33,921 nt of DNA from Lachnospiraceae bacterium 10-1 (GTDB taxonomy: Bacteria; Bacillota; Clostridia; Lachnospirales; Lachnospiraceae): positions 261,797 through 295,717 of the forward strand of contig KE159819.1 in NCBI GenBank assembly GCA_000403495.2, given 5' to 3'. Below the pieces are notes generated by a model, which did not search any database, was not told the DNA's origin, and worked only from the letters and a program-made list of their open reading frames with translations. A program made the translations under genes and the position numbers. Positions 3,226 to 20,092 of the stretch are shown here, piece by piece (position 1 is the stretch's first letter; each line of letters opens with the position of its first letter).

Positions 3226-3264
3226 ACAGGGAAAAGCTTAAGTGGGAAAGGCATGGGCATAAAC

Positions 3265-4348: not shown

Positions 4349-4386
4349 AGGGGCTGCATTCTTTGACAGGATGCGCTCCTTTTTTC
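4349..4386 (+). terminator. Rho-independent terminator after the LacI gene
   Basis: AGGGGC(T)GCAT pairs with ATGCGCTCCT across a short loop and is followed directly by TTTTTT. This closes the LacI transcript. Confidence 0.8.
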
Positions 4387-4485: not shown

Positions 4486-4587
4486 TGGAATAATCAATCC
4501 CAGATTATTGAATCAGAAAAATGCATATGCTACTATCTGTGTAAACAATGATTGCAGACTTTATCTGTCATCTGTTGTTAATAAAAA

Positions 4588-4610
4588 TGCATAAAAATAT
4601 GCATTATAAT
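4588..4610 (+). promoter_or_regulatory. Promoter candidate of the sugar operon
   Basis: TATAAT at 4605-4610 is a consensus -10, about 77 bases before the lipoprotein start. It sits beside an ATGCAT-AAAAAT-ATGCAT palindrome (about 4587-4604) that may bind a regulator. No convincing -35 is present at 16-18 bases, suggesting activator dependence or weak basal activity. The rest of the 4291-4686 gap holds the terminator and operator listed separately. Confidence 0.45.
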
Positions 4611-4686
4611 GCAAGGGCTGTCGACAGGCATTTGCCAACCAGTGAATTTAGAAAGAGACCGCTTTAGCGGCAGAAATGAGGTAATA

Positions 4687-5772
4687 ATGAAAAAGAGGGT
4701 TACAAGAATTTTTTCCATGTTATTGATATTTATTTTACTTTTATCCGTATTAGCAGGCTGTGGACAAAAGAGTGGGGATGCGCCTGATAAAGTGCCTTCC
4801 CAGACAGAGACGGAAACACAACCGGATGCAGGAGATACCGGCAGTGAAGAGGGCAGAACCTATAAAATCGGCGTGGTAGCCGGAGAGTCTTCCTCCCCCT
4901 GGTATATCAGATCGGCAGAAGGGGCGGAGACTTTTATGAAGGAGCGTGGGATTGAGGTATTTCAGAAGGCGCCTACATCTGTTGATGCGGCGGAACAGGT
5001 GCAGGTAGTGGAGGATGTAATTGCACAGGGAATTGACGCGCTGTGTATTATTCCAATTGCGCCGGAAGCCTTAGAGCCGGTACTCCAGAAAGCAAGAGAA
5101 AACGGTATTATTGTGATTGCTCACGAGGGTTCCACACTTAAGAATATTGATTATGATGTGGAGGCATTTACGCCGGAAGGATATGGAGCTTTTATGATGG
5201 ATCTTCTGGCGGAGCAGATGAATCAGGAGGGTAAATATGTCTGTATGGTCTCTTTTTTAACTACTTCTTCGCATAATGAATGGATTGATGCGGCGATAGC
5301 ACATCAGAAGGAAGCTTATCCTGATATGGAGCTGGTGGAAGAGGAAAGGGTGGAATCACAGGACAGCCAGGAAGGAGCTTATGAAAGAGCAAAGGAATTG
5401 TTGAAAAAATATCCTGATTTAAAAGGGATTTTAGGATCAAGCTCATTTGATGCGCCGGGTTCGGCAAAAGCAATTGAGGAGCTGGGACTTGTGGGACAGG
5501 TATTTACCACAGGAACGTCCACAACTTCTTCCGCTCAAAAATACATGGAAAGCGAAACTATGAAAAATTTCACTTTATGGGATCCTGCGGATTCGGTGTA
5601 TGCAATGTGTGATCTTGCTGTCAGGATTTTGGAGGGAGAAGAGATTAAAAGCGGGGTAGACTTAGGGATCGAAGGTTACAACGAAATGACAATGGATGAA
5701 ACAGGAAAGATTCTTATGGGCTCCGGCTGGGTATGTGTAACAAAAGATACAATGGCAGATTATGATTTCTGA
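4687..5772 (+). CDS. Sugar-binding lipoprotein of an RbsABC-type importer
   Basis: ATG 4687 is preferred over the in-frame ATG 4609 because it has GAGGT upstream and places a typical signal sequence at the N-terminus, with a lipobox ending LAGC near residue 24. After an acidic linker, the protein is a type 1 periplasmic binding domain of the sugar group (RbsB/XylF-like), 361 residues in all. It would bind the substrate outside the membrane and deliver it to the two permeases encoded downstream. A small hairpin separates it from the ATPase gene, which is common after binding-protein genes that need higher expression. It is the first gene of the operon running to 16184. Confidence 0.88.
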   Translation: MKKRVTRIFSMLLIFILLLSVLAGCGQKSGDAPDKVPSQTETETQPDAGDTGSEEGRTYKIGVVAGESSSPWYIRSAEGAETFMKERGIEVFQKAPTSVDAAEQVQVVEDVIAQGIDALCIIPIAPEALEPVLQKARENGIIVIAHEGSTLKNIDYDVEAFTPEGYGAFMMDLLAEQMNQEGKYVCMVSFLTTSSHNEWIDAAIAHQKEAYPDMELVEEERVESQDSQEGAYERAKELLKKYPDLKGILGSSSFDAPGSAKAIEELGLVGQVFTTGTSTTSSAQKYMESETMKNFTLWDPADSVYAMCDLAVRILEGEEIKSGVDLGIEGYNEMTMDETGKILMGSGWVCVTKDTMADYDF

Positions 5773-5792
5773 TGCTGCGAAAGAAAGCAGCA
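5773..5792 (+). repeat. Intercistronic hairpin after the binding-protein gene
   Basis: TGCTGC-GAAAGAAA-GCAGCA is a 6-bp stem directly after the lipoprotein stop and before the ATPase ribosome site. It may protect the upstream message. Confidence 0.45.
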
Positions 5793-5811
5793 GGTTAGGA
5801 GATGGAAACAG

Positions 5812-7332
5812 GTGGATAATACAATACTTTCCTTAAAAGGAATCAGCAAGAGCTTTGGAGGCGTTCATGCTCTGGATCAAGTTGATCTTGAGGTAAAAAA
5901 AGGACAGATACATTGCCTTATGGGTGAAAATGGAAGCGGAAAATCTACGTTAATAAAAATTATCTCAGGCGTCTATAAACCGGATCAAGGTGAAATTTTG
6001 CTAAATGGCAGGAAATATGAAAGCCTTACGCCAGCAGAATCTGTAAAGCAGGGAGTTTCCATCATTTATCAGGATTTTTCCGTATTTCCCAATCTCACTG
6101 TGGCAGAAAATATATTTTTTGGTTATGTCATTGCAGAAAATCAGAAGCTAACTCATAATCAGGAAAATATCAGGAAAGCACAGGCGATTGCAAAAGAAAT
6201 TGGTTTGGAAGCAGACATGGGAGAGATACTGGAAAACTTAAGCGTCGCGCAAAAACAAATGGTGGCGATTTGTCGGGCGCTTTTAAATAATGCCAGGTTA
6301 ATCATTTTTGATGAGCCGACCACGGCATTGACGCAGAAAGAAGTGAAAAGGCTGTTTTCCCTGATACGGGATATGCGGAAAAAAGGAGTTTCCACACTGT
6401 TTGTAAGCCACAAGCTGGAAGAGGTTTTTGAGATTGCAGAAGAATTTACAATTATCCGCAATGGAAAAAAGGTGATTACAACATTTGCTGCGTCAATTAC
6501 AAGAGAGAAATTCATTTATTATATGACAGGGCGGAAGTTAAGCGAAGATCAATTTGTATGTAAAGAGAAGACGGAACAGGTTCCCCTTTTAGAGGTAAAA
6601 GGTCTTTTTATGGAAGGAGCATACCGGGACATAAGTTTTTCTTTGTATCCTGGAGAAATTTTAGGGATTGTAGGGCTGTTAGGCTCCGGAAGAACGGAGC
6701 TTGCCCTGTCCCTTTTCGGGATGGAGCCTGCGCAAAAAGGTCAGATTTTTAAAAATGGAAAGGAAATAAAATTAACATCTGTCAAGCAGGCGATGGAGCA
6801 TCACATTGGATATGTGCCGGAGGATCGATTGTCAGAAGGGTTGTTTTTGCCTCAGAGTATTAACTGGAATGTTGGTATTTCCAATCTTGGCATGTATGCA
6901 GGCAGACTGGGAAGGCTGCTTAAAGACAAAATGAGAACGGTTACACAGCAGTATGTGAAATCGCTGTCAGTAAATACCACAGAAATTGATAAGCCGGCTA
7001 ATTTTCTGTCAGGAGGAAATCAGCAGAAGGTGGTTATTGCAAGATGGCTGTCCTGTAATCCGGAAATTATGATATTTAACTGCCCCACGGTAGGTGTGGA
7101 TATTGCCGCAAAATTTGATATTCACAAAATTCTTCGTACACTGGCAGCGCAAAAAATTGGCATAATTATTATTTCTGATGATATTCCGGAGGTGTATGCA
7201 AATTGCAATAGAATTCTGATAATGCAAAAAGGTCAGATTGTGAAAGAACTAACCAATACGGAAACTTCGGAAACGGAGCTTTATTCGTTAATTGGAAGCG
7301 AATACGCTGATGAAAAAGAGGCGGCAGGATGA
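5812..7332 (+). CDS. Sugar ABC importer ATPase, two fused nucleotide-binding domains
   Basis: The 506-residue protein has the RbsA/MglA/XylG layout of two ABC domains. Domain 1 is complete: Walker A GENGSGKST at 38-46, an LSVAQ signature near 145, and Walker B FDEPTTAL with Asp167/Glu168. In domain 2 the Walker A position reads LLGSGRTEL, the usual degeneracy in this family, and the signature LSGGNQQ at 399 is kept. Unusually, the Walker B acidic pair is replaced by Asn423-Cys424 (FNCPTVGVD), where RbsA-like proteins normally have DEPT. Translation starts at GTG 5812 after TAGGAGA; the nearby ATG 5802 leads to an immediate stop. The permeases follow in the same operon. Confidence 0.9.
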   Translation: MDNTILSLKGISKSFGGVHALDQVDLEVKKGQIHCLMGENGSGKSTLIKIISGVYKPDQGEILLNGRKYESLTPAESVKQGVSIIYQDFSVFPNLTVAENIFFGYVIAENQKLTHNQENIRKAQAIAKEIGLEADMGEILENLSVAQKQMVAICRALLNNARLIIFDEPTTALTQKEVKRLFSLIRDMRKKGVSTLFVSHKLEEVFEIAEEFTIIRNGKKVITTFAASITREKFIYYMTGRKLSEDQFVCKEKTEQVPLLEVKGLFMEGAYRDISFSLYPGEILGIVGLLGSGRTELALSLFGMEPAQKGQIFKNGKEIKLTSVKQAMEHHIGYVPEDRLSEGLFLPQSINWNVGISNLGMYAGRLGRLLKDKMRTVTQQYVKSLSVNTTEIDKPANFLSGGNQQKVVIARWLSCNPEIMIFNCPTVGVDIAAKFDIHKILRTLAAQKIGIIIISDDIPEVYANCNRILIMQKGQIVKELTNTETSETELYSLIGSEYADEKEAAG

Positions 7333-7385
7333 TGGAAGAACAGGCTTAAAGCTGGCACAAATGATTAAAAGCGGAAGGGGAAGAT

Positions 7386-8390
7386 ATGGACAGGGTGAAA
7401 AAGATATACACCAGGAACGAATTTTATACGGCAGCTTTGATACTGGTTTTGGCTGTGTTTATAGAGTTAAGAAGCGGACTTTTCTTTACTTCAAATAATA
7501 TTCTGGATATTTTAAGGGGCATGATCGTACCGGGGATGCTGGGATTGTCTGAATATATTGTAATGGTATCGGGAGGATGTGATGTTTCCTTTCCCTATTC
7601 GGCGGCGCTTAGTATGTACAGCACGATTATCTTGTTAAAGGCGGTTAATTTTACCGGAAATGTAATGATAGCCTTTTTGCTTTCCTGTTTGTTTGGAATC
7701 GTGATAGGAATGGTCAATGGTTTGATTATAATGCGTTACCGTTTTCCTGTTTTGATCGTAACACTTGCGACCTGTTCGATTTGTCAGGGGATTTTATTTG
7801 GGATTTTAAATGCTCATGAGATTCCTGTGATACCACAGCCGATTCAAAACCTGGCAAAGAGTATGCTGATTCGTACTTATAGTGAGAAAGCACAGATGGC
7901 AGGCAGCCTTCCTCTCGTGTTTTTGGTTTTTTTCATACTTACTGCAGCGGTTTGGTTTTTAATGCGTCGAACGACAATAGGAAGAAGCATTTTTGCAGTA
8001 GGCGGTGATGTAAGCTCAGCGGAAAGAATCGGGATTAAAGTGAATTTTGTATATATGTTTATTTATGGTTTTGCCGGATTTATTGCGGGGCTTACAGGCA
8101 TGACGAGAGTGGTATTAATGGATACCTGCCATCCCAACACTTTTTCAGGGATGGATATGACGGTAATTGCAGCGGTTATTTTAGGAGGAACAAAGGTGAC
8201 GGGAGGCTCAGGAAGTATCACGGGAGTCATGCTTGGAACGATGCTTTTTGTGATTGTTAATAACAGTCTGCAGCTTATGGGAATTCCAAATTACTGGCAG
8301 AAATTTTTCCTTGGAGTGTTGATTGTGCTTGGAACGGGAATTGCCGCCTTTCAGGTAAGCAGAAAAAGAAAGAAAGGGAAAGCAGGATGA
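7386..8390 (+). CDS. RbsC-type sugar ABC permease, first subunit
   Basis: This 334-residue integral membrane protein consists largely of hydrophobic helices and has the RbsC/AraH/LsrC pattern, including a VVSGGCDVS-like motif near residue 60 and a late AAVILGGTKVTGGSGS loop. The start at ATG 7386 has AAGGGGAAG upstream. Its stop overlaps the start of the next permease by four bases (ATGA), so the two are translationally coupled and probably form a heterodimer served by the ATPase upstream. No truncation is seen. Confidence 0.9.
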   Translation: MDRVKKIYTRNEFYTAALILVLAVFIELRSGLFFTSNNILDILRGMIVPGMLGLSEYIVMVSGGCDVSFPYSAALSMYSTIILLKAVNFTGNVMIAFLLSCLFGIVIGMVNGLIIMRYRFPVLIVTLATCSICQGILFGILNAHEIPVIPQPIQNLAKSMLIRTYSEKAQMAGSLPLVFLVFFILTAAVWFLMRRTTIGRSIFAVGGDVSSAERIGIKVNFVYMFIYGFAGFIAGLTGMTRVVLMDTCHPNTFSGMDMTVIAAVILGGTKVTGGSGSITGVMLGTMLFVIVNNSLQLMGIPNYWQKFFLGVLIVLGTGIAAFQVSRKRKKGKAG

Positions 8391-9406
8391 TAAAACAATT
8401 TAAACAAATGTTTGCAGCCGGAAATTGGGCACATCCGGCCAGGGACAGTGTGAAGCGGCAGCTTTTATTATTGGTGGTTTTGTTTGCAGCCATGAGTATT
8501 TTAAGGCCTTCTTTGTTCCTGACTTCATCTAATTTAAATGCAATGGCCTATCAGTTTCCGGAATATGGACTGATTGCTTTAGGGGTGTTGTTTGCAATGA
8601 TTGCAGGAGGGATAGACCTTTCTTTGATAGGAATCGCAAATCTTACAGCTATTCTTATGGCGAAGCTGCTGATTTCATGGACCAAAGAAGAAATGTCAGG
8701 AATACAAAATGCAGGCATTTTCTTCATTTGTTTCCTTTTATGTATGGCGGTAGGGGCAGCCTGCGGCATGTTAAATGGTTGTCTGATTTCAGGTTTAAAG
8801 ATTCCTGCCATGCTTGCAACACTGGGAAGCCTTCAGCTTTTTTCAGGAATAGGAATGATTATCACGAAGGGAAAGGCGATTACAGGAGTTCCGGAAACTT
8901 ATGTAACGATGGGAACAGGAAAGCTGTTTGGCTTTTTGCCGGTACCGCTGGTTATTTATATAGGAGCAGTTTTTGTCTGTCATTATGTTATGTCCAGAAG
9001 TACTTTTGGAATGAGACTTAAGCTGATGGGAACCAGTCAGAAGGCAGCTTTATTTGCAGGTCAGAATAATAAACGAACGACCGTAAAAGCGCATATGGCA
9101 GGAGGAATGCTGGCTTCTTTTTCAGGATTTATTATGCTTGCAAGAATGAATTCGGCAAGGCCGGATTTTGGAAGTTCTTATACAATGCAGTCTATTTTGA
9201 TCGTGGTACTTGGCGGTGTGAACCCGGCCGGAGGGTTTGGAACGGTAAAGGGAGTTGTTCTGGCTACGCTTATTTTGCAGTGTTTTTCTTCCGGGCTTAA
9301 TATGTTTCCGGCGATCAGCCCTTACTTAAAGCAGCTGGCCTGGGGCTTAACCTTGCTTGCAGTTATGATTATGAATTTTTACAGCCGCCAAAGGAAAGCT
9401 GAGTAA
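8387..9406 (+). CDS. RbsC-type sugar ABC permease, second subunit
   Basis: A 339-residue membrane protein paralogous to the preceding one: an IAGGIDLS motif near residue 66, many hydrophobic helices, and the conserved VVLGGVNPAGGFG loop near 275. Two different permease subunits with one double ATPase is the arrangement of the autoinducer-2 (LsrC/LsrD) and some pentose importers, rather than the single RbsC of ribose systems. It is the last transporter gene; a perfect 10-bp hairpin lies between it and the regulator gene. Confidence 0.9.
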   Translation: MIKQFKQMFAAGNWAHPARDSVKRQLLLLVVLFAAMSILRPSLFLTSSNLNAMAYQFPEYGLIALGVLFAMIAGGIDLSLIGIANLTAILMAKLLISWTKEEMSGIQNAGIFFICFLLCMAVGAACGMLNGCLISGLKIPAMLATLGSLQLFSGIGMIITKGKAITGVPETYVTMGTGKLFGFLPVPLVIYIGAVFVCHYVMSRSTFGMRLKLMGTSQKAALFAGQNNKRTTVKAHMAGGMLASFSGFIMLARMNSARPDFGSSYTMQSILIVVLGGVNPAGGFGTVKGVVLATLILQCFSSGLNMFPAISPYLKQLAWGLTLLAVMIMNFYSRQRKAE

Positions 9407-9416
9407 AGAGAAAGGA

Positions 9417-9452
9417 AATGCCGGTGGAATTGCTAAAGGCAGCACCGGCATT
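9417..9452 (+). promoter_or_regulatory. Intercistronic 10-bp stem-loop between transporter and regulator
   Basis: AATGCCGGTG (9417-9426) pairs perfectly with CACCGGCATT (9443-9452) around a 16-base loop. No T-run follows, so it is more likely a processing or stability element or a weak attenuator than a full terminator. It would allow transporter and enzyme genes to differ in expression. Confidence 0.55.
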
Positions 9453-9469
9453 GACTGTAGGAGGTGCAC

Positions 9470-11710
9470 ATGCCGACCATAAAAGATGTAGCAAAAAAAT
9501 CAGGTGTTTCTATTGCAACGGTATCCAATATTTTAAATAACAAAGCATCTGTGAGTGAAGAAATTTATCAGAGAGTCTACAGTGCAATGGAGGAGCTGGA
9601 TTATAAGCCCAACATGCTGGCCAGAAATCTAAAATCCAATGGCGTGAAATTTGTGGGGATTATTGTTCCTGCCTTTTTAGGCATATATCAGGATATTATA
9701 GAAGGAATCCAGCGGGAGCTTTCGGAATATGATTTTTACCTGATTACCAGAACCACAAACGATATGATAAACAAAGAAAAAAAGCTGATTGACGAGTTTA
9801 TAGGCCTTGGTGTATGTGGAATTTTTGTTGTTACATCTTTTCGGGATATGGAATACTACAAAAAGGCGGCAGATGCGGGAATTTCTCTTGTATTTATAGA
9901 ACGGACGGTAGATGAATTAAATTATTCCAGTGTTGTGTTTGACAACAGGAGCATGGTGAGAAATCTGCTTCGCAGTTTATTGACAAAAACATGTAAAGTG
10001 GAAGAGTTATGGTTGATTACCGGTGATTTATCTTACAGCTCGGAAAGAGATTTTTTGGAGGGTGCTTATCTTGCAGTGGAAGAAGCGGGAATGCAGGCAA
10101 AGGAGTTGAAAAGGTCTCAGGTTTCTTTCAGCGAGCTGCAGGCTTTTGCGGATATGATGAATTTGATAGGCAGGGCGGACGAGATTCCTCCCTATGTGAT
10201 TCTTTCCAGCGAAAGAATATTGGAGAGTTTTATGGAAATGCTGTCTATTTATGACAGAAAAGATACCCATATCTTTGTTCCGGTGGGAGAGAGATGGAGC
10301 AGTGCAGGGAGGAGTGAATCAATCTGTGAAATTCCCCGCAGAGCAGTTTATTGCGGAAAAAGATGTGCACAGCTTATGCTGGAATTTGTGAAAAAACCGG
10401 CTACAAATGAAAATACTCAGATTGTAATTCCTACGCAGGAAGTAAAGGAAGAGCAATTGATTTCTTATATACCGGCGCTCCACAGATCATTAAAGATTTT
10501 ATTAACATCAAACGCCATGACAACTGCACTGTTAAGGCTTCTTCCGGCATTTATGAGGGAATCCGGCATACAGGTGGAAACAAAAATTTTTACCTATCAG
10601 CAGGAACTGTACGAAGAAATTATGAAACAGTATGAAAGCGGCAGCAGTGAATATGATGTTTACATGATGGATTCCCCCTGGATTGAATATTTCCGCCAGA
10701 TACAGTGTGTGCTTACACTGAATCCATATCTGGAAAAAGAAAAAGAATATGTGAAAAGCTTTGTGCCGGAAATCTGGAATAAGCTAAATGGGGGAAATGG
10801 CAGGATTATAGGTATTCCCCTTGTCAGTATGACGCAGCTTCTTTTATATAGAAGAGATCTTTTTAAAAGTCCGGCGCTTCAAAGGGCTTATTACAGGAAA
10901 AATGGTTTGGAGCTGGGGCTTCCATCCACCTGGACAGAGTATAATTTTCTGGCGAAGTTTTTTACCCGGGAATTTACAAAGGATTCTCCCACGGAATATG
11001 GAACCTGTCTTCTGGGAAAGAAGCCCAACGGATTAATACAGGAATTTTTTCCCAGGCAATGGAGTTTTCATGGGGCGGTCATGAACAAAAATCAGGTAGT
11101 AATAGATTCTTTGCAGAATGTCAGGGCAGTGCGAAATCTGATGGAAGCGTATGAATGCTCGCTGCCACAGATATGGGATTTAATGGAGAATGAGCAGATT
11201 GAAGCTTTTGCAAAAGGAAATATTGCATTTATCAGCACTTACAGCGGACATATAAAAAGTATTTTAGATTCTCAGTTTGGAAGTATTGGGGATCGTTTAG
11301 GGTATGCGGTTCTGCCGGGCAAGTATTCTCTGGTGGGAAGCTGGCTTTTGGCTGTCAATGGGAACTGTCAAAATCCGGATACCGCATTTTCATTTATCAA
11401 ATGGATTACGTCAGGAACAAGAGCAATGCAATGTAGTGTATTGGGCGGTTTTATGCCCAAGCAGACAGTAAATTTAAGTGAGCAGATTAAAACAATCTAT
11501 CCCTGGAACGAGCATCTTGAGGATTATGTTAAGATGGAGCGTCAAAGGGAAAATATCAGAAATGCAAGGGGAACCTATATCAACAATTATTCTATTGAAG
11601 GCGTGATAGCAGATGGCCTGCAGGATGTTCTTTGTAAAAAATGCGGTATTGAAGAGATGCTGGAAGATTGTAAAGAACAGATTAAGGCGATGGTCAGGGA
11701 GTGGAAGTAA
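9470..11710 (+). CDS. LacI repressor fused to a solute-binding-protein domain
   Basis: At 746 residues this is twice the length of a LacI repressor. Residues 2-55 form the LacI helix-turn-helix and hinge (TIKDVA, IATVSNIL, NMLARNL). Residues about 60-335 are a complete type 1 sugar-sensing domain. Residues about 345-746 resemble a whole family 1 extracellular solute-binding protein (type 2 fold), including a YDVYMMDSPW segment and the late sequence AFSFIKWIT. There is no signal peptide or lipobox, so the extra domain is cytoplasmic and presumably a second sensor. ATG 9470 is chosen because TAGGAGG sits at ideal distance; GTG 9464 overlaps that site. It is followed without gap by the epimerase gene, so it is probably autoregulated within the operon. 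Confidence 0.88.
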   Translation: MPTIKDVAKKSGVSIATVSNILNNKASVSEEIYQRVYSAMEELDYKPNMLARNLKSNGVKFVGIIVPAFLGIYQDIIEGIQRELSEYDFYLITRTTNDMINKEKKLIDEFIGLGVCGIFVVTSFRDMEYYKKAADAGISLVFIERTVDELNYSSVVFDNRSMVRNLLRSLLTKTCKVEELWLITGDLSYSSERDFLEGAYLAVEEAGMQAKELKRSQVSFSELQAFADMMNLIGRADEIPPYVILSSERILESFMEMLSIYDRKDTHIFVPVGERWSSAGRSESICEIPRRAVYCGKRCAQLMLEFVKKPATNENTQIVIPTQEVKEEQLISYIPALHRSLKILLTSNAMTTALLRLLPAFMRESGIQVETKIFTYQQELYEEIMKQYESGSSEYDVYMMDSPWIEYFRQIQCVLTLNPYLEKEKEYVKSFVPEIWNKLNGGNGRIIGIPLVSMTQLLLYRRDLFKSPALQRAYYRKNGLELGLPSTWTEYNFLAKFFTREFTKDSPTEYGTCLLGKKPNGLIQEFFPRQWSFHGAVMNKNQVVIDSLQNVRAVRNLMEAYECSLPQIWDLMENEQIEAFAKGNIAFISTYSGHIKSILDSQFGSIGDRLGYAVLPGKYSLVGSWLLAVNGNCQNPDTAFSFIKWITSGTRAMQCSVLGGFMPKQTVNLSEQIKTIYPWNEHLEDYVKMERQRENIRNARGTYINNYSIEGVIADGLQDVLCKKCGIEEMLEDCKEQIKAMVREWK

Positions 11711-12406
11711 ATGAAAAAAGTGAAAATAACCCCTTCGATGCTGGCATCCGATCATGGGAATTTAAGGCAGGAGGTACAAAGAGTACAGGGATGGGGAAGT
11801 GATGGGCTTCACATAGATGTTATGGAGCCGGAGGCGGTGGAAGATTTGGGGTTTACGCCCAGAATGGCAAAGGCAGTTCAGGAATGCTGCAGGTTGCCGG
11901 TAGAGTATCATATGATGCTTAAGGATTACAGGAAAGGAATGCTGCTTTTTAAAGGGCTTTATATGGAAGAACTGGTAATGCAGTATGAAACCGCAAGAGA
12001 GCCTTCTGTGCTTTTGTGTGAAGCGCTGCTGCGGGAGGCAGGAAATTATGCGGCAAGGGTAGGACTTTCCTTTGCACCGGATACGCAGCTTAAAGGAAAG
12101 GAAGCGCTTCTTCCACTGTGCAGCACTGTAATTTTAATGGGAGTGGAGCCGGGCAGGGGTGGGAGCAGATTTCAGGAGAAAACCATAGAAAAAATAAAAG
12201 AACTTGTCCGTATAAGAAAACAGATGAATATGCCTCAGTTGGTGATTGCTGTTGATGGAGGATTAAATCTTGAAAATGCGCGCAGATGTATTATGGCAGG
12301 AGCTGATAAGCTGATTATTGGAACTGCACTTTTTAATCACTCGAATCCGGCAGAAATGTTACACAAGATAAAAGAAGACAAAGGAGAAAGCAATGATTTG
12401 TTATAA
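11711..12406 (+). CDS. Ribulose-phosphate 3-epimerase superfamily enzyme (RPE/AlsE-like)
   Basis: This 231-residue (beta/alpha)8 protein keeps all four metal ligands known from E. coli Rpe: His34, Asp36, His67 and Asp182, in LHIDVM, YHMML and AVDGG. It should therefore perform metal-dependent epimerisation next to a keto group of a sugar phosphate. Two substrate-contact loops differ from ordinary Rpe and AlsE. The DVMDGxFVPN loop reads DVMEPEAVED, and the phosphate-side PGFGGQ loop reads PGRGGS. A distinct substrate is therefore likely. The start directly follows the regulator stop, with GGGAG upstream, and its end overlaps the YjbQ gene by 14 bases. A housekeeping Rpe role is unlikely in this context. 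Confidence 0.82.
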   Translation: MKKVKITPSMLASDHGNLRQEVQRVQGWGSDGLHIDVMEPEAVEDLGFTPRMAKAVQECCRLPVEYHMMLKDYRKGMLLFKGLYMEELVMQYETAREPSVLLCEALLREAGNYAARVGLSFAPDTQLKGKEALLPLCSTVILMGVEPGRGGSRFQEKTIEKIKELVRIRKQMNMPQLVIAVDGGLNLENARRCIMAGADKLIIGTALFNHSNPAEMLHKIKEDKGESNDLL

Positions 12407-12899
12407 CGAAAAAATAATAGTTCAATCAACAGGAGGACGCCCTTCTTTTCATGATATTTCTGAAAAAGTAAAGGAGGCGGTGATGCATTCAGGAGCAAAG
12501 CAGGGAATTTGCACTATCTATTCTCATCACACCACCTGTTCGGTAATGATTCAGGAATTATCCCATGACAGAAATTTTTACGGGCTTGAGTATTTGCAGC
12601 AGGATCTCTGTAATCTGATGGAAAAGCTGGTTCCCACATGCAGGACAGAAGGACAATATATGCATCCTGGCCCGGCACATATTGATTTTGCAATGAATGA
12701 AGTAGGGGAAGTGGGTGAATGGACTTGCTTAAATACGGACGCCCATTTAAGATCTTGTTTGTTTGGACGCTCTGAAAGTATTGTATTGGAAAAGGGCAGG
12801 CTTGATCTTGGTGAGTTTGGCCACATTTATATGATTGACTGGGATCAGGTCAGAGCCAGGGAAAGGGTTGTGCAGATACAGATTATTGGCATGGAGTAG
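12393..12899 (+). CDS. YjbQ/UPF0047 family protein, divergent
   Basis: The 168-residue protein shows the YjbQ landmarks YSHHTTCSV (His45, His46) and NTDAHLRSCLFG (Asp116, His118), with GRLDLGEFGHIYMIDWD at the end where the family usually has LxLGxWQxIxxxExD. YjbQ proteins have been linked to weak thiamine-phosphate synthase activity, but their physiological role is unclear. Between the conserved blocks this protein has an unusual segment, HPGPAHIDFAMNE (91-103). The gene has an AAAGGAG ribosome site inside the upstream epimerase gene and overlaps it by 14 bases, implying a role in the same pathway, perhaps as a sugar-phosphate isomerase or lyase. That role is inference. Confidence 0.8.
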   Translation: MICYNEKIIVQSTGGRPSFHDISEKVKEAVMHSGAKQGICTIYSHHTTCSVMIQELSHDRNFYGLEYLQQDLCNLMEKLVPTCRTEGQYMHPGPAHIDFAMNEVGEVGEWTCLNTDAHLRSCLFGRSESIVLEKGRLDLGEFGHIYMIDWDQVRARERVVQIQIIGME

Positions 12900-12939
12900 A
12901 GCAAAATTTGTTAGTTATTGGTGCGGCATGGAGGAAATG

Positions 12940-14628
12940 ATGAAAAAATATAGTATTGGAATAGATTTTGGAACACTTTCGGCAAGAGCGGTTCTTGCAG
13001 ATGTTTCCAGTGGAGAGATTATGGCATCCGATATATACGAGTATGGACATGGAGTCATAGAACAGCAAATGCCGGACGGAACCAGACTGCCGGAAGGGTT
13101 TGCCTTACAGGATCCTGGAGATTATCTGGAAGCAGTTGCCGCACTTATTCCCGGATTGCTGTCTTTAGCCGGAATCGCGGCAGATCAGGTAATTGGAGTG
13201 GGAACAGATTTTACTTCTTCCACAATGATTCCAGTAAAAAAAGACGGAACACCTCTTTGCAGATTGGAGCAATATAGAAACCGACCTTTTGCTTATGCGG
13301 TTTTGTGGAAGCATCATGCCTCTCAAAAAGCGGCAGATCAAATTAATAAAAAGGCAGAGGAAACCGGTCAAGAATGGCTGGATCGCTATGGAGGGAAAAT
13401 TTCTTCGGAATGGAGTATCCCAAAGCTTTTGCAAATGTACGAAGAAGATCAGGAACTCTATGAGCAGACAGATGTCTGGGTTGAAGCTGTCGACTGGATT
13501 GTATGGCAGTTGACCGGAATTGAAAATCACAGTTACAGTACAATGGAGTTTAAGGCAATTTGGGACCAGAAGGAAGGATTTCCGGCACAGGATTTTTTTA
13601 GAAAGCTTGCACCGGGATTTGAGCAGGAGGCAGTCAAAAAGCTGGGGACAAATTTTCTGCCCCAGGGTGTCAAAGCTGGTGGGATTACTTCGTATATGGC
13701 ACAGGTGACCGGATTAAAAGAAGGTACGCCGGTAAGCAGTGGAATTGTAGATGCCTATGCCTGCCTTCCGGCAGTGGGAATAGACGGGGCGGGAAAAATG
13801 CTTTTGATTGTGGGGACTTCGGTGTGCGAAATTTTGGTTGAGCCGGAAGGAAAAGATGTACCGGGACTTTGCGGGAGAGCCAGAGATGGAATTCTGCCTG
13901 GGTATTATGCACATGAAGGGGCCCAGTCGGCCGGAGGGGATATTTTGGCATGGTTTACAAAAATATGTTGTAGTGGAGAAATGGAAAGAGAGGCTGAAAA
14001 GAAAAAAATATCCTTACATACACTTTTAACGGAAAAAGCAGCCAGACTACGCCCCGGAGAAACAGGACTTTTGGCATTGGACTGGTGGAATGGTAATAAT
14101 TGTATTCTGGATGATATGTATCTAAGCGGAATGATTGTGGGGCTTACACTTTCTTCCAGGCCGGAGGAAATTTACCGGGCGATTATGGAAAGTATCGTAT
14201 TTGGAAGCAGGATAAATGTGGAACAGTTTCAAAAGCATGGCATTTTGGTAGAGCAGATATTAGCAGCCGGGGGAATCTGTAAAAAAAATGAATTGATGAT
14301 GCAGATCTATGCGGATGTGCTTAATATGCCTGTGCATGTTTCGGCTGCAGAGCAGGGGCCGGCTTTAGGAAGCGCCATGTTTGGAGCAGTTGCAGCCGGA
14401 AAAAAAGAAGGAGGCTATGATTCCATTTATGAAGCGATTTCTAAAATGAAGGCCCCGGTGGAGAAAATTTATAACCCTGTTCCGGATCATGTAAAAGTTT
14501 ATGATGAATTGTTTTTGGAATATAAAAAGCTGCATGATTATTTTGGATGCGGGGGGAATGATGTTATGTACCGTTTAAGACATGTGAAAACAGGTAAATG
14601 TGTTACGAACAAAGTCTTTGGACTTTAA
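12940..14628 (+). CDS. FGGY-family ketose kinase, AraB (ribulokinase)-like
   Basis: The 562-residue protein follows the Bacillus AraB pattern closely: IGIDFGTLSARAV near residue 5, LWKHHASQKAAD, GGKISSEW, the catalytic-base Asp271 in IVDAYACLPAVG, LLALDWWNGN, and AAGGICKKN near the ATP site. AraB-type kinases phosphorylate ribulose and related ketoses or polyols at the terminal hydroxyl using ATP. No arabinose isomerase (AraA) or AraD is nearby, so the substrate may not be arabinose-derived. Start choice: ATG 12940 has GGAGG at five bases; the in-frame ATGs at 12937 and 12928 cannot be excluded. An upstream in-frame extension overlaps the YjbQ gene and does not resemble the family. The isomerase gene follows within 20 bases. 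Confidence 0.88.
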   Translation: MKKYSIGIDFGTLSARAVLADVSSGEIMASDIYEYGHGVIEQQMPDGTRLPEGFALQDPGDYLEAVAALIPGLLSLAGIAADQVIGVGTDFTSSTMIPVKKDGTPLCRLEQYRNRPFAYAVLWKHHASQKAADQINKKAEETGQEWLDRYGGKISSEWSIPKLLQMYEEDQELYEQTDVWVEAVDWIVWQLTGIENHSYSTMEFKAIWDQKEGFPAQDFFRKLAPGFEQEAVKKLGTNFLPQGVKAGGITSYMAQVTGLKEGTPVSSGIVDAYACLPAVGIDGAGKMLLIVGTSVCEILVEPEGKDVPGLCGRARDGILPGYYAHEGAQSAGGDILAWFTKICCSGEMEREAEKKKISLHTLLTEKAARLRPGETGLLALDWWNGNNCILDDMYLSGMIVGLTLSSRPEEIYRAIMESIVFGSRINVEQFQKHGILVEQILAAGGICKKNELMMQIYADVLNMPVHVSAAEQGPALGSAMFGAVAAGKKEGGYDSIYEAISKMKAPVEKIYNPVPDHVKVYDELFLEYKKLHDYFGCGGNDVMYRLRHVKTGKCVTNKVFGL

Positions 14629-14647
14629 AAGGAGCATGATTATAAAT

Positions 14648-15208
14648 ATGGATATCTATCAAATCATCATAAAGGAAATTGAAAATGTATTGCTATCGGT
14701 TGACAGGCAGGAAATCAAAGTATTAAAACAGGAAATTTTGATGGCGCGAAGGATTTATGTTGCAGGAGCCGGAAGATCAGGACTTGTGGCGGGAAGTTTT
14801 GCAATGCGTCTTTGTCAATTGGGGTTGTGTGCCTTTCTGGTGGGGGAAGTGGCCGCCACTGCCATTGGAGAGGGGGATCTTCTTATTTTGATTTCAGGCT
14901 CAGGTAATACGGAAAGCATAGTGCGCTTTTCCCAAAAAGCAAAACAGGAAAAGACGAAAGCAGCGCTTCTTACCGTATCAGGGGAAGGAAGAGCGGCAGC
15001 TAATTGCAGCCTGACTATAAAAATGCCCGGGACTTGTGAAAAAGATGCTGCAGATAGAAATACAGGCATGGAAGGAAGCAGGCAGCCTATGGGGGCCCTG
15101 TTTGAACAGAGCGTTCTGCTTTTGTTGGACGGACTTGTACTGGAGTTAATGGAAAGCCTGCAGGAAACTTCCAAGACAATGATGAGAAGACATGCAAATC
15201 TGGAGTAG
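14648..15208 (+). CDS. hxlB: SIS-domain sugar-phosphate isomerase, 6-phospho-3-hexuloisomerase-like
   Basis: The 186-residue protein matches the PHI/HxlB pattern: AGAGRSGLVAG at 40-50, the GE loop with ATAIGEGDLL at 70-79, SGSGNTES at 83-90, a late QPMGALFEQS segment, and the RHANLE C-terminus typical of PHI. PHI interconverts D-arabino-hex-3-ulose 6-phosphate and fructose 6-phosphate. Its usual partner, hexulose-6-phosphate synthase (HxlA), is not in the window, so formaldehyde fixation is not implied. Here it may isomerise a 3-keto sugar phosphate made by the neighbouring kinase and epimerases. Start: ATG 14648 fits the family; in-frame ATG 14636 lies almost on the AAAAGGAG site and would add four residues. 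Confidence 0.82.
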   Translation: MDIYQIIIKEIENVLLSVDRQEIKVLKQEILMARRIYVAGAGRSGLVAGSFAMRLCQLGLCAFLVGEVAATAIGEGDLLILISGSGNTESIVRFSQKAKQEKTKAALLTVSGEGRAAANCSLTIKMPGTCEKDAADRNTGMEGSRQPMGALFEQSVLLLLDGLVLELMESLQETSKTMMRRHANLE

Positions 15209-15242
15209 AAGGGGCAGGCAGAAAGGAGTATGGTTATAAAAA

Positions 15243-16184
15243 ATGGAGATTGGACTTTGTTTGTCATTTTGCAATAAACGCTGGAAAAATCCGCAGGCAC
15301 TGGCAGAATTTGTAGATTCTCTTGGCGTCAGGCTGGTGCAGTTTTCATGGGATCTGGTAAATCCCTGGTGGGAAGAAGGAATTCGGGATGAACTGGCAGG
15401 GGAATATGCCAGAGCGTTCAGGCAGAGGCGGATTGAAATAACAATTTCTTTTTCAGGAATGGCTGCATATGCTTATTCCAGTCTGCTTTCAGAGGATGAA
15501 AGAGTACGTAAAATGGGGATGGATTATTTAAAGCGGGCTGTTGATATGACTGCGGCTATGGGAATTCCTGCACTGGGAACGCCGGCGGGATGTATGGAAT
15601 CTTTAGAAGGGCTACAGAATATTGGAAGAAAAAAAGCAGATATAGAAGTGCAGGATGCCGGAAAGGAGAATCACAGAGGATATGTTAAGCGTGGGGAAGT
15701 CAGAAAGCGTTTGGTTGATGATTTAATTCTTTTGTCCCGTTATGGGGCCCAAAAAGGGTTAAAGCAGCTTTATTTAGAGCCCACTCCTGTACAGACGGAA
15801 ATTCCCTGTACTGCATTGGAAGCGGGAATATTGATGGAACAGCTTTCCGGAAAAACACAAATTCCTGTTGGGCTGGTTCTGGACTGGGGACATGTTCTTT
15901 GCCCTTCTTTTAACGAAGAACCGGCAGATATGAATTATTGGCTTTCTGCTTGCAAAGGCTATGTAGGTGCATGCCATATACAGCAGTGTGATGGAAAAGG
16001 GGACAGGCACTGGGGATTTACCAGACAGGGAATTGTAACACCGGAAATGATACGGAGCGTGCTTGAAAATCCTGATGCCTCCGGAATCATTCATTATCTG
16101 GAATATTGCCCTGCTTTTGAGACGCCGGGGGAAGAAGTGATAAAGGAGATTAGGGATTCAGTGAAGTATCTGCAGTCAATATGA
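15243..16184 (+). CDS. Sugar-phosphate isomerase/epimerase, xylose-isomerase-like TIM barrel
   Basis: The 313-residue barrel carries the metal-site set of this superfamily: Glu179 (YLEPTP), Asp214 with His217 (LDWGH), His245 (CHIQQCD) and Glu287 (YLEYCP). These enzymes move a keto group or invert C3 of ketoses or their phosphates. The opening (LSFCNKRW, FSWDLVNPWW) reminds me of the erythrulose-phosphate 3-epimerase group (EryH/LerI) rather than classical UlaE or tagatose epimerases, but this is from memory and needs a search. It is the last gene of the operon, 35 bases after the SIS isomerase, and is followed by a hairpin terminator. Confidence 0.75.
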   Translation: MEIGLCLSFCNKRWKNPQALAEFVDSLGVRLVQFSWDLVNPWWEEGIRDELAGEYARAFRQRRIEITISFSGMAAYAYSSLLSEDERVRKMGMDYLKRAVDMTAAMGIPALGTPAGCMESLEGLQNIGRKKADIEVQDAGKENHRGYVKRGEVRKRLVDDLILLSRYGAQKGLKQLYLEPTPVQTEIPCTALEAGILMEQLSGKTQIPVGLVLDWGHVLCPSFNEEPADMNYWLSACKGYVGACHIQQCDGKGDRHWGFTRQGIVTPEMIRSVLENPDASGIIHYLEYCPAFETPGEEVIKEIRDSVKYLQSI

Positions 16185-16206: not shown

Positions 16207-16254
16207 AGAGCCATTTGTCATGCAGGAATTGTGTGGTAAATGGCTCTATTGTAT
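16207..16254 (+). terminator. Terminator of the sugar operon
   Basis: AGAGCCATTT (16207-16216) pairs perfectly with AAATGGCTCT (16238-16247), followed by ATTGTATTTT. The tail is also the -35 region of the next promoter. This closes the unit that began near 4605. Confidence 0.65.
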
Positions 16255-16330: not shown

Positions 16331-16420
16331 ATGAAAGATGGTGTTTCTGATATGCACTGCATGAGTGAAAAATATTTAATAGAGGATTTGGAAAGGGAAT
16401 TATGCAAAAAAGAAAACTAA
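16331..16420 (+). CDS. Possible 29-residue leader peptide
   Basis: An ATG-started frame with a GAGG about 11 bases upstream reads 29 polar residues and stops 19 bases inside the DUF3160 gene in another frame. Its overlap with the downstream start could couple translation. It matches nothing I recognise and may be chance. Confidence 0.2.
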   Translation: MKDGVSDMHCMSEKYLIEDLERELCKKEN

Positions 16421-18657
16421 AATCAATTTTAAGTCTGCTGCTGATTCTAAGTCTTTTAACAGCCTGCAGCCTGCAAAAGCAGCCGAAAGAAGGAGCAGCA
16501 CAGACAACTGGACAGCCGGGAGAAGATGAGACGGGCAGTTCCTTAACGGAGAATGGAGCAGATGGTGAGGGAAAAGAAGGGGAGGCATCTGCGGGTGCCC
16601 CGGGGAATGAGAAATCAGGGACAGGAGGGAGGCCTGCGCTGATTGGAAGTATGGAAGAGAGCGGTGAGATCAGTGTATCTCCATGTGTGGAACCATATAC
16701 TATTGAGTCGGATTTGAGTAATGTCTATAACCTGGAGCAGTTTTATTTTTCAGATGAAGAAATGATAGACAAGCTCGCTAAAAACGGGTTCGTTGTATGT
16801 GGAAGCGCCGGAAATGAATTTTTTGAAATTTACGAGATAAACAGATACAGCAATATTCCCAATTTTGTGACTGTGGATTCTTTGATGCATACTTATCATT
16901 TGTACTTTAGTTATCTTTTAAAAAATATAGAAAGAGATTATTTATCAGACAGTATCCGTCAGCTCAGCCTTAAAATGCTGGATAACAGCGCCGCGTTGTA
17001 TGAGCAGTTAAAGGGAAGTGCATGGGAGAGCGCGGCAGCCCGCAATGCTGCATTTTTCACCATAGGGGCGATGCTTTTGGGGGAAGAGCCGGAGGTAAAG
17101 GCATATGTACAGGATATGGTGCAGCAGGAGCTTGACCGGATAAAACAGGCGGATTGGATTTACAAATCGGAAATTACCGGGGATGAGGAGGATTATACCC
17201 AGTATATTCCCCGTGGATATTATGCGGGAGATCAGAAGCTGGAGCAGTATTTTCAGGCAATGATGTGGTATGGCCGGATTCACTTTGCACAGGAAAATGA
17301 GGAGATGGAAAGAAGCGCCCTTTTGATTACCAAAGCATTGACAGAGGATGAGAAGGCCTATGAATTGTGGGAATCCATTTATGCAGTAACTTCATTTTTT
17401 GCGGGAGCAAGCGATGACTTAGGAGTGTGCGAATACGCGCCGGCCGCACAAAAGGCTTTTGGAGAGGATATTTCCCTGGAGACATTAATTTCAGACGAAG
17501 AAGCTTTCCGGCAGTTTCATGCAATGACAGGGGAGCTTCCCCTGCCTCAAATTAATTCCATACCGATTATGGACGGTGAGGATAACGTAATTCCGGGATT
17601 TCGATTTATGGGGCAGAGATTTACCATCGATGCAGCCATTATGCAGAAGATGATTTACAGTGACGTGAAGGAAAATTCTTCGGGAGATAAACGTATGCTT
17701 CCGGATGTGCTGGATGTGCCTGCCGCTCTTGGCAGCGATATGGCGCTTACTATTTTGAAGGAACAGGGAGCGTTTGAATTTTCAGGCTACGGGGAAAATA
17801 TGGAGCAGCTGAAAAAATTTTTAAGTCAGGAAAATGATACCCTTTGGTCGTCAAGTCTGTATGCAGGATGGCTGCATACCCTTCGGCCATTGCTTGTACC
17901 TAAGGGGGAGGGCTACCCTGTTTTCATGCAGAGCAAGGAGTGGACAAAGAAAAATCTGGAATGCTTTGCGGGGAGCTTTACGGAATTAAAGCATGATACG
18001 GTGCTTTACTCCAAGCAGGTAATTGCAGAAATGGGCGGAGACTATATTGAGGATATTGACAGCAGGGGATATGTGGAGCCGGAGCCCTATGTGTATGCAA
18101 GGTTTGCTGCTTTGGCCGGTGAGACGTCAAAAGGGCTTAAGGCATATGGAATGCTTAGTCAGGCGGATGAGGAAAATCTGTCTATTTTGTATGAGATAGC
18201 GGACCGACTGTGGAAAATTTCCAATAAAGAGCTGAAAGATGAGGTGCTTTCCGCGGAGGACTATGACTTTATCCAGTGCTATGGCGGCAACCTTGAGCAT
18301 TTCTGGTATGAGACAGTAAAGGAAGAAACAGAAGATATGGTATCTACTCAGGAGTGTCCTGCCGCAGTGGTGGTGGATATTGCAACAAATCCCAATGGAA
18401 TTGTGCTTGAAGCAGCCACCGGAAATCCGTCTGTTATCTATGTGGTGGTTAAAGTGGACGGAAAGATTAAAATTGCAAAGGGAAGCGTTTATTCTTTTTA
18501 TCAGTTCTCCTGGCCCCTGGAAGATCGGCTGACCGACGCAAAGTGGCGTCAGATGTTGGGCATACAGGCGGATGAAAACGGAAACCATAATTATGATTTG
18601 TCAATCCCCAAACCGGATTGGACAGGAAGCTATCGTTTCAAGTATGCGTGGGAATAA
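16402..18657 (+). CDS. DUF3160-family lipoprotein
   Basis: The 751-residue protein has a basic start, a hydrophobic stretch and a lipobox ending LTAC (Cys22), then a low-complexity Gly/Glu/Ser linker to about residue 75. The remainder matches the DUF3160 pattern, including an FVTVDSLMHTYHLYFSYLL segment around 155-175 and a mainly helical body with many Trp and Tyr. It would sit on the outer face of the membrane. No catalytic motif is known to me for DUF3160. It has GGAAAGGG upstream, its own promoter, and overlaps the following CapA-like gene by 14 bases, indicating a shared function. Confidence 0.82.
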   Translation: MQKRKLKSILSLLLILSLLTACSLQKQPKEGAAQTTGQPGEDETGSSLTENGADGEGKEGEASAGAPGNEKSGTGGRPALIGSMEESGEISVSPCVEPYTIESDLSNVYNLEQFYFSDEEMIDKLAKNGFVVCGSAGNEFFEIYEINRYSNIPNFVTVDSLMHTYHLYFSYLLKNIERDYLSDSIRQLSLKMLDNSAALYEQLKGSAWESAAARNAAFFTIGAMLLGEEPEVKAYVQDMVQQELDRIKQADWIYKSEITGDEEDYTQYIPRGYYAGDQKLEQYFQAMMWYGRIHFAQENEEMERSALLITKALTEDEKAYELWESIYAVTSFFAGASDDLGVCEYAPAAQKAFGEDISLETLISDEEAFRQFHAMTGELPLPQINSIPIMDGEDNVIPGFRFMGQRFTIDAAIMQKMIYSDVKENSSGDKRMLPDVLDVPAALGSDMALTILKEQGAFEFSGYGENMEQLKKFLSQENDTLWSSSLYAGWLHTLRPLLVPKGEGYPVFMQSKEWTKKNLECFAGSFTELKHDTVLYSKQVIAEMGGDYIEDIDSRGYVEPEPYVYARFAALAGETSKGLKAYGMLSQADEENLSILYEIADRLWKISNKELKDEVLSAEDYDFIQCYGGNLEHFWYETVKEETEDMVSTQECPAAVVVDIATNPNGIVLEAATGNPSVIYVVVKVDGKIKIAKGSVYSFYQFSWPLEDRLTDAKWRQMLGIQADENGNHNYDLSIPKPDWTGSYRFKYAWE

Positions 18658-20092
18658 ACTATTATTAAAAACAGGGATTTTTGCCCTGATGCTGGTTGGT
18701 ATGGGCATTATTTGGTATGTTTTATGGGTAAATGGCGCCTTTCTGCCGGGCTGGATAGAGTGGAAAAATGAAATACTCAATGACCAATCTGGTCAATATG
18801 ATATATCAGTAAACCATAAATCTGCTCAGATTACCTATGAAGATGAAGTGATTTTTACTTCCCCGAATGAGGTGAAGGTGCAGAGTGCATTGTGCTGCGA
18901 CATTGACAATGACCGGGAGGATGAGCTGATACTTCTCTGCTGGAAAACAGGGCGGTTTGGAACTCATAGGCCTTTTTGGGTGGAAAAGGATGAAAGAAAG
19001 TGGTCACAGCATATTTTTATATATGAGTTTGAGCAGGAGAAGGTCAGGCCTAAGTGGATGTCTTCTTATATTGGACAGGATGTAATGGAACTGGCTTCAA
19101 ATGGAAAAAGCGCCCCTTTTACCAGACTTTGGCTGACTGATCCGGAGGGGAACACAAGCAGTTTTAAATGGGACGTGTGGGGATTTACCAGAGAAGATAC
19201 GGAAGTGTCTTTTGCAGTATTTGGAGATATTTTAATTCATGAACCGATTTACAGGTATGCTTTGCGCCATGAGGAATCTTTTGATTTCCTGTTTGAAAAT
19301 GTGAGGGATGTGATTGCGCTAAGTGATGTTGCAGTGATTAACCAGGAAACGCCCTATACGGATAACCCGGCAATGTACAGCGATTATCCCAGGTTTGGAA
19401 CGCCTCTTTTAGCCGGGCAGGCGGTAGTGGATGCCGGCTTTGACGTGGTGACCTGCGCCACAAACCATGCCCTTGACAGGGGAGAGGTGGGAGTTGACCT
19501 GACAAAAAATTTTTTTGACTCCCATGAAGTAATCTGTCTGGGAATACAGACAGAGGCGGAAAGACAGGACCGCCCCTATGAAATCCTCACAAGAAAAGAT
19601 ATTAAGTTTGCCCTTTTTAATTATACCTATGGCACCAATGGAATCAAACTTCCGGAAGAAAATCCGTATATGGTGCATCTATTGGAGGACGAAGCAAAAA
19701 TCAGGAAGGATATTGAGGCGGCCGGGAAGGAAGCTGATTTTGTGATTGTATTTGCCCACTGGGGCAGCGAATACACAGAGCAAATTGATGAGTTTCAGCA
19801 AGAATGGGCACAGATCTTTTTGGAAAGCGGAGTGGATGTGGTGGTTGGAACTCACCCTCATGTGCTCCAGCCCTGTGAGGTTCTCACCAGTGAGGATGGG
19901 CATAAGATGCTGGTTTTTTATTCTATTGGAAACTTTATCAGCGCCCAATCGGAGAAAAGCTGCGTAAAGGGCGGCATGGCGGAATTTACCGTATCCCTTA
20001 CGAGAGAAGGGTATCAGATTACGGATTATTCCCTTAAACCTCTTTCGATTACCTGGCAGGAGGGCGGGAAGTTTGTGGTGGATTTTGTGTAA
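18644..20092 (+). CDS. CapA-like membrane-anchored metallophosphatase-fold protein
   Basis: From ATG 18644 the protein is 482 residues with an N-terminal membrane anchor (about residues 8-28). A region with a CDIDNDREDELILL motif follows, resembling VCBS/FG-GAP calcium-binding repeats. From about 188 to the end it is a PGA_cap domain: FGDILIH, INQETP, CATNHALDRGE, FAHWGSEY, GTHPHVLQP and YSIGNFISA carry the metal-site Asp, Asn and His residues of this calcineurin-like group. CapA proteins act in poly-gamma-glutamate or cell-surface polymer handling, but no other cap genes are here. ATG 18572 would place the anchor 24 residues in; the later start is preferred. Overlap with the DUF3160 gene implies coupling. 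Confidence 0.82.
   Translation: MRGNKLLLKTGIFALMLVGMGIIWYVLWVNGAFLPGWIEWKNEILNDQSGQYDISVNHKSAQITYEDEVIFTSPNEVKVQSALCCDIDNDREDELILLCWKTGRFGTHRPFWVEKDERKWSQHIFIYEFEQEKVRPKWMSSYIGQDVMELASNGKSAPFTRLWLTDPEGNTSSFKWDVWGFTREDTEVSFAVFGDILIHEPIYRYALRHEESFDFLFENVRDVIALSDVAVINQETPYTDNPAMYSDYPRFGTPLLAGQAVVDAGFDVVTCATNHALDRGEVGVDLTKNFFDSHEVICLGIQTEAERQDRPYEILTRKDIKFALFNYTYGTNGIKLPEENPYMVHLLEDEAKIRKDIEAAGKEADFVIVFAHWGSEYTEQIDEFQQEWAQIFLESGVDVVVGTHPHVLQPCEVLTSEDGHKMLVFYSIGNFISAQSEKSCVKGGMAEFTVSLTREGYQITDYSLKPLSITWQEGGKFVVDFV

Follow-up and report, generated by a model that had tools for sequence, protein, structure and literature searches.

A 33,921-nucleotide stretch of the genome of Lachnospiraceae bacterium 10-1 (contig KE159819.1, positions 261,797 to 295,717), here called the window, contains ten forward-strand genes at 4609-16184 that make up one unit, in which adjacent genes overlap or are separated by gaps of at most 57 nucleotides. 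The unit may be an operon for the import and use of a ketose. It encodes, in order, a binding protein, an ATPase, two permeases, a LacI regulator fused to a substrate-binding protein, and five enzymes. The window genome has a size of 4.57 Mb in 24 contigs and is rated 100% complete; the named contigs closest to it are those of the Lachnospiraceae metagenome-assembled genomes UBA7199 and UBA7093. The five enzyme genes occupy positions 11711-16184:

11711..12406, + strand, divergent protein resembling ribulose-phosphate 3-epimerase (RPE), with H34, D36, H67 and D182 kept
12393..12899, + strand, YjbQ/UPF0047 protein of a long clade
12940..14628 (start at 12928, 12937 or 12940), + strand, FGGY kinase of the L-ribulokinase type
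14636..15208, + strand, HxlB-type SIS isomerase with the motifs of 6-phospho-3-hexuloisomerase
15243..16184, + strand, EryC-like TIM-barrel epimerase of the metal-dependent type

Domain matches of the five enzymes are far beyond chance (Ribul_P_3_epim 3.7e-39, UPF0047 3.1e-27, FGGY_C 1.1e-39, SIS 3.4e-12, AP_endonuc_2 7.7e-15), which confirms the genes, order, strand and families given in a preliminary description made from the sequence alone. The genes had also been described as overlapping or closely spaced. This holds for the 14-nucleotide overlap of the RPE-like and YjbQ genes and for the short gaps. The reading frame of the kinase opens with TTG 12835, within yjbQ, but the conserved protein starts at ATG 12928, 12937 or 12940, and therefore the kinase gene probably does not overlap yjbQ. 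The SIS gene probably starts at ATG 14636, preceded by AAAGGAGC, because the frame from GTG 14600 exceeds the gene of a relative by 12 codons.

The kinase scores 619.4 bits against the L-ribulokinase model AraB TIGR01234, above the equivalog cut-off of 583.25, and 203.6 bits against the pentulose-kinase subfamily TIGR01315, below the cut-off of 408.7. It aligns with the solved ribulokinase 3qdk over 551 residues. L-ribulose is contacted in 3qdk by Ala96, Lys208, Asp274 and Glu329 (PMC4880283). Lys208, Asp274 and Glu329 are kept in the window kinase, and Ala96 is replaced by serine, as in nine of 22 other AraB-like proteins from the family sample. Two residues past Asp274 the window kinase has a tyrosine, where 21 of the 22 have a histidine. 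The kinase is the only AraB-type match in the window genome at 1e-90, and AraA has no match there at 0.001, while the same model matched five of 14 control genomes, including those of E. coli and B. subtilis. The protein is therefore unlikely to be a conventional L-arabinose kinase. AraD, HxlA and any dehydrogenase are missing among the ten genes of the unit, HxlA and dehydrogenases having been searched for in the unit only. The absence of these enzymes and of AraA, as claimed in the preliminary description, is thus correct for the unit and, for AraA, for the genome; two AraD-type genes are located elsewhere in the genome.

The SIS protein passes the HxlB model TIGR03127 (191.7 bits, cut-off 160) and contains the motifs GAGRSG, SGSGNT, QPMG and HANLE. 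Among five SIS proteins encoded next to HxlA in other Lachnospiraceae, GAGRSG is found in four, SGSG(E/N)T in all five, and QPMG and HANLE in three each. Three aligned SIS proteins linked to dihydroxyacetone kinase (DAK) instead carry GREG, LGDG, and HRNVE or HRNIE.

The RPE-like protein aligns with solved RPEs and retains the expected residues H34, D36, H67 and D182, which we take to be those of metal binding and catalysis. Its score against the model of AlsE, D-allulose-6-phosphate 3-epimerase (NF007266), is 84.5 bits, below the cut-off of 271. Judged by these residues, the protein may act as an RPE although it is not classed as one. A role as 3-hexulose-6-phosphate synthase was rejected, the HxlA model giving only 23.3 bits. 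Among 332 genomes sampled from the class, only the window genome has a match at 1e-33, and a genus relative, G202, has a copy with 88% identity. The protein represents a divergent lineage, seen only within the genus in the samples searched.

The structure closest to the TIM barrel is 3qxb, a "putative" protein of unknown function, followed by that of EryC, D-erythrulose-1-phosphate 3-epimerase. Of the characterised barrels compared, EryC is the nearest to the window barrel in both sequence and fold, and the window barrel has the expected metal and catalytic residues. Searches for the barrel matched seven of 200 genomes of the family sample and three of 37 genomes of the genus at 1e-25, and seven of 378 genomes of the phylum sample at 1e-40, each count including the window genome. 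We examined all 19 barrel loci listed by these searches, with neighbours within 7.5 kb. Ten contain an HxlB-type SIS gene, two a triosephosphate isomerase (TPI) gene, and none both. The kinases of the ten loci with a SIS gene are AraB in three (one cut by a contig end), DAK in five, XylB-like in one and of the xylulokinase type in one (577.3 bits, xylulokinase cut-off 380.25). An RPE gene is near the barrel in four of the 19 loci, two of which are in the genus of the window and two beside zinc alcohol dehydrogenases. Both loci with TPI have a GlpO-like oxidase; one of them (in genome G751) also has an FGGY kinase, and the other is a 5.3-kb contig. Erythritol loci combine the kinase EryA, the dehydrogenase EryB, EryC and the TPI homologue EryH, an arrangement that this gene content resembles. 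The lack of any locus with both SIS and TPI would fit a SIS protein that moves the carbonyl in place of the TPI homologue, but with such numbers the pattern is not statistically significant (about 0.21).

EryC-like barrels also occur beyond the family (loci L232, L233, L235 and L237), together with kinases or oxidoreductases and with either SIS or TPI, as if the two isomerases were interchangeable. At five places in other Lachnospiraceae (L032, L033, L036, L037 and L038) the barrel, a SIS gene and a dihydroxyacetone-kinase fusion lie behind an ABC importer, and the fetched stretch contains an RpiB/DerI-like gene in two of the five. These loci are candidate operons for the import and use of erythrulose; transporters and kinases for tetroses are described as unreported in the consulted part of PMC12780249.

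The YjbQ protein of the unit passes the cut-off of TIGR00149 and has the YjbQ fold. The YjbQ family is widespread, being present in ten of the 14 control genomes and in at least nine solved structures. Within a class sample of 99 genomes, 57 matches to TIGR00149 exceed 100 bits and are canonical, and 25, including that of the window, lie at 45.7-80.1 bits. In a tree of 79 sequences, 59 long YjbQ proteins, that of the window among them, and 20 canonical ones fall on opposite sides of a branch with 100/99 support, although long branches meet at the join. Compared with solved YjbQ proteins, that of the window has about 30 extra residues between two aligned blocks. One of the 25 low-scoring proteins (G324, 76.4 bits) is without any of the partner genes described below and was not placed in a clade.

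The long YjbQ proteins differ from the canonical ones in their gene neighbourhood. At 1e-30, the window YjbQ matches 40 of 341 class genomes, the window genome included, and all 57 match places outside the window were fetched as 46 stretches, in which neighbours within 6 kb were recorded. TpiA-like genes are present in 39 of these loci, SIS genes in 34, AraA/SftI-like isomerases in 25 and FGGY kinases in 24; TpiA-like and SIS genes occur together in 30. At least one of the four partners is found in 44 of the 46 loci, and the two loci with none (L091 and L143) each lie near a contig end. All 57 canonical YjbQ loci served as a control; whether the threshold is set to 1e-10 or to 1e-5, none of them has any of the four partners, and RpiB is present in one. 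The reference proteins for these counts were taken from the loci studied, mostly those of long YjbQ, many test genomes belong to the same family, and stretches shorter than 10 kb make up 12 of the 57 control and eight of the 46 test loci. Judged from its relatives and their neighbours, the YjbQ of the unit is a member of a distinct clade found in sugar-phosphate loci, and no bystander. This link between the long YjbQ clade and sugar-phosphate isomerase loci is the most surprising result of the analysis.

The window unit has no TpiA-like partner and contains the barrel in its place. The nearest analogue observed is a locus from another family (L147) with genes for an AraB-like FGGY kinase, RPE, a TpiA-like protein, a class II aldolase and YjbQ, in this order. 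Several loci (L093, L097, L099, L125, L134, L135 and others) encode two YjbQ paralogues of the long clade, about 164 and 206 amino acids in length and often close together, which form separate groups in the tree. A 499-residue protein (L082, 9573-11069) has relatives beside long YjbQ in ten of the 46 loci and no Pfam or NCBIfam match at 0.001.

The co-occurrence of the five genes outside the window genome, which the preliminary description had singled out as decisive, is mixed. The full gene order is kept in G202 (locus L030) at 87-97% identity, and in a second genome of the genus, G203 (L039), the set is cut by a contig end inside araB. At 1e-25 the barrel has no match in the other 34 of the 37 genomes of the genus, and no copy of the five genes together was found outside the genus among the genome samples searched. 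Our literature search found no description of one pathway that combines these five enzymes, in agreement with the proposal that the operon matches no standard pathway. The unit is nevertheless built from recognisable modules.

Based on the gene content, a mechanism can be proposed in which the unit is a ketose-import operon for uptake, phosphorylation, carbonyl shift, epimerisation and entry into central metabolism. We give this reading a probability of about 0.42, with the reactions, their order, the substrate and the product all predicted. The ABC importer would take in a ketose, and the AraB-type kinase would phosphorylate its terminal carbon. The HxlB-type SIS protein would interconvert the 2-ketose and 3-ketose forms by shifting the carbonyl between C2 and C3. 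In the 3-ketose form the EryC-like barrel would invert a carbinol centre adjoining the carbonyl, and in the 2-ketose form the RPE-like protein would invert C3. All four isomerising enzymes would be useful, because HxlB-type enzymes interconvert 3- and 2-ketose phosphates, each of which exposes different centres to an epimerase. The long-clade YjbQ would contribute one more sugar-phosphate reaction to this route. The product would most likely enter central metabolism as D-xylulose or D-ribulose 5-phosphate, if the substrate is a pentulose, and less likely as fructose 6-phosphate, if it is a hexulose. The preliminary description had likewise proposed that an imported ketose is phosphorylated by AraB and converted by epimerases and the HxlB-type isomerase. 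This pathway is plausible and its interpretation partly supported: the AraB and HxlB scores above cut-off, the HxlB motifs and the epimerase residues agree with it, and both of the substrates that the description gave as examples, a 3-hexulose and an uncommon pentulose, are still candidates. The description had missed the sugar-phosphate clade of YjbQ, EryC as the nearest characterised relative of the barrel, and the recurrence of the barrel and SIS pair with other kinases.

We speculate that the enzymes could also perform a carbonyl walk, free of redox steps and aldolases, that converts all four pentulose 5-phosphates to D-xylulose 5-phosphate without AraD. AraB would phosphorylate any of the four 2-pentuloses, and the SIS protein would move the C2 carbonyl to C3, next to C4, which the barrel would then invert. 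The SIS protein would return the carbonyl, and the RPE-like enzyme would set C3. L-ribulose and L-xylulose phosphates would be included, and for an L-pentulose substrate the outcome would be a 4-epimerisation without AraD. The long YjbQ would be a new sugar-phosphate enzyme reused in Clostridia. We consider this extended scheme improbable. EryC, from its named reaction, inverts the side away from the phosphate and so fits C2 of a 3-ulose better than C4; this regiochemistry counts against a walk through C4 and favours an imported 3-ulose.

Several observations weigh against the proposed ketose operon. The RPE-like protein scores 140.5 bits against the rpe model TIGR01163, below the equivalog cut-off of 212.6. 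SIS proteins of barrel loci without visible HxlA (200.7 bits in L232 and 190.2 in L233) and the second SIS protein of L043 (164.3) likewise exceed the HxlB cut-off, and therefore passing it is no proof of hexulose activity. The HxlB motifs point to a hexulose, but AraB and the RPE-like protein to a pentulose. In a tree of 26 sequences, the window SIS and its genus relatives fall outside a ten-member clade with 100/100 support that holds the three DAK-linked SIS proteins, so that the pairing of barrel and SIS arose more than once or is old. Neither SIS nor TPI is near the barrel in seven of the 19 loci. The AraD-type genes elsewhere in the genome mean that an AraD-free route would not be needed were L-ribulose the substrate. 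In the literature searched, no activity is named for the RPE-like protein, the barrel structure 3qxb or the long-clade YjbQ.

The strongest rival to the ketose operon with five active enzymes is the plain use of D-ribulose or D-xylulose, for which the importer, AraB and the RPE-like protein suffice, while HxlB, the barrel and YjbQ are accessory. The kinase and the RPE-like epimerase cover the steps from D-ribulose through D-ribulose 5-phosphate to D-xylulose 5-phosphate, and the genome has its sole AraB-type kinase in this unit and lacks AraA. According to the consulted parts of PMC12307932, AraB of enterohaemorrhagic E. coli phosphorylates D-ribulose, and the Rbl locus of Citrobacter rodentium combines an ABC importer, an FGGY D-ribulokinase and a KpsF-like SIS isomerase, the loss of whose gene causes no growth defect. 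However, the window SIS is of the HxlB and not the KpsF type, the kinase falls short of TIGR01315, and three of the five enzymes would be left without a job even though the gene order is kept in G202. We regard this explanation as doubtful. A hexulose route, in which C6 of a 3-hexulose or rare 2-ketohexose receives the phosphate, HxlB yields fructose 6-phosphate, and the barrel and the RPE-like, or AlsE-like, protein correct the stereochemistry, would account for the HxlB score and motifs and for the match to the AlsE model. That match is far under its cut-off, the HxlB score is shared with SIS proteins lacking a nearby HxlA, and the pocket residues of AraB largely resemble those of a pentulose kinase, which together make the route unlikely.

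The similarity of the barrel to EryC raises the alternative of a tetrulose such as erythrulose being converted to erythrose 4-phosphate, in which the barrel would take the part of EryC and the SIS protein that of L-erythrulose-1-phosphate isomerase. The reactions of EryC, LerI and DerI are described in the consulted part of PMC10733421, and the five DAK loci and the G751 locus, with its barrel, TPI, FGGY kinase and GlpO-like oxidase, fit such chemistry. The window unit resembles the tetritol pathways in placing an EryC-like barrel by a kinase and a candidate carbonyl-shifting isomerase. It differs in having AraB for a tetritol or erythrulose kinase and not DAK, and an HxlB-type SIS that lacks the GREG and HRNVE or HRNIE motifs of the DAK-linked proteins; a TPI-like isomerase, an RpiB-like isomerase (DerI) and a dehydrogenase, which are traits of tetritol and erythritol operons, are all missing from its ten genes. 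We consider a tetrulose substrate quite improbable. It is very improbable that the unit serves salvage or detoxification, in which a damaged sugar phosphate is removed or repaired by YjbQ and returned by the remaining enzymes to the pentose phosphate pathway. Extra yjbQ relieves a pdxB mutant of E. coli by a route left unresolved in the consulted part of PMC7954711, and this rescue and a thiamin phosphate synthase activity are the only functions named for YjbQ in the parts of the literature found. The dedicated importer and hybrid regulator that head the unit point instead to a nutrient.

The proposed ketose operon shares individual components with known systems. The Rbl locus has the importer, FGGY kinase and SIS isomerase in common with it, and differs in that its SIS is of the KpsF type and its kinase a dedicated D-ribulokinase; the consulted parts of that report mention no gene for an RPE-like, YjbQ or EryC-like protein. 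The AraB-type L-ribulokinase is shared with L-arabinose araBAD, from which the window genome differs in lacking AraA and in having its AraD-type genes outside the unit. The HxlB-type isomerase with its usual motifs is shared with the HxlA-HxlB ribulose monophosphate pathway, and HxlA is missing from the unit. The window YjbQ falls in a separate clade from the solved YjbQ/UPF0047 proteins (1vph, 2p6c, 1vmj and six others). If the proposal is correct, gut clostridia alter sugar stereochemistry by carbonyl shuttling, without NAD or an aldolase, and HxlB-type isomerases work outside formaldehyde metabolism. The fixed metabolic neighbourhood of the long YjbQ clade suggests C4-C6 ketose and aldose phosphates as first substrates, and makes the old question of YjbQ function directly testable.

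The enzyme genes are preceded and flanked by the following features:

4355..4375, + strand, terminator-like hairpin upstream of the unit, after a separate LacI gene at 3253-4290
4586..4605, no strand assigned, palindrome AATGCATAAAAATATGCATT directly before the first gene, candidate operator
4609..5772, + strand, sugar-binding protein, RhaS/LsrB-like, Peripla_BP_4
5812..7332, + strand, sugar ABC transporter ATPase of the AraG/AlsA type
7386..8390, + strand, ABC permease, BPD_transp_2
8387..9406, + strand, ABC permease, BPD_transp_2
9464..11710, + strand, hybrid regulator of 748 amino acids with a LacI helix-turn-helix, a periplasmic-binding-like domain and an SBP_bac_1 domain
16207..16247, + strand, terminator-like hairpin of 19 pairs with a T-rich tail at the end of the unit

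A sugar ABC importer heads the unit, as had been described, although its binding protein is nearer to the RhaS and LsrB models (157.9 and 117.3 bits, each under its cut-off) than to those of RbsB, which the label RbsABC-type had implied. The upstream hairpin is weak evidence alone, because 15 terminator-like sites were found against 11.1 expected in shuffled sequences. Repeated ATGCAT words (4521-4526) and the palindrome lie ahead of the first gene and form a possible operator for LacI-type regulators. A full-length relative of the LacI fusion is encoded beside a related importer in another genome (G013, L112 15728-18013; 26% identity over 762 residues).

Downstream of the unit, a DUF3160 gene overlaps a gene resembling PGA_cap capsule-synthesis genes (window 16402-20092), and the pair is kept in G202, where a 157-residue open reading frame weakly similar to window frame 31392-31964 sits between the barrel and DUF3160 genes. 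A second hybrid regulator, with a GntR helix-turn-helix and an SBP_bac_8 domain, is encoded on the reverse strand at 22205-23671 and adjoins a GH116 gene and a substrate-binding protein gene.

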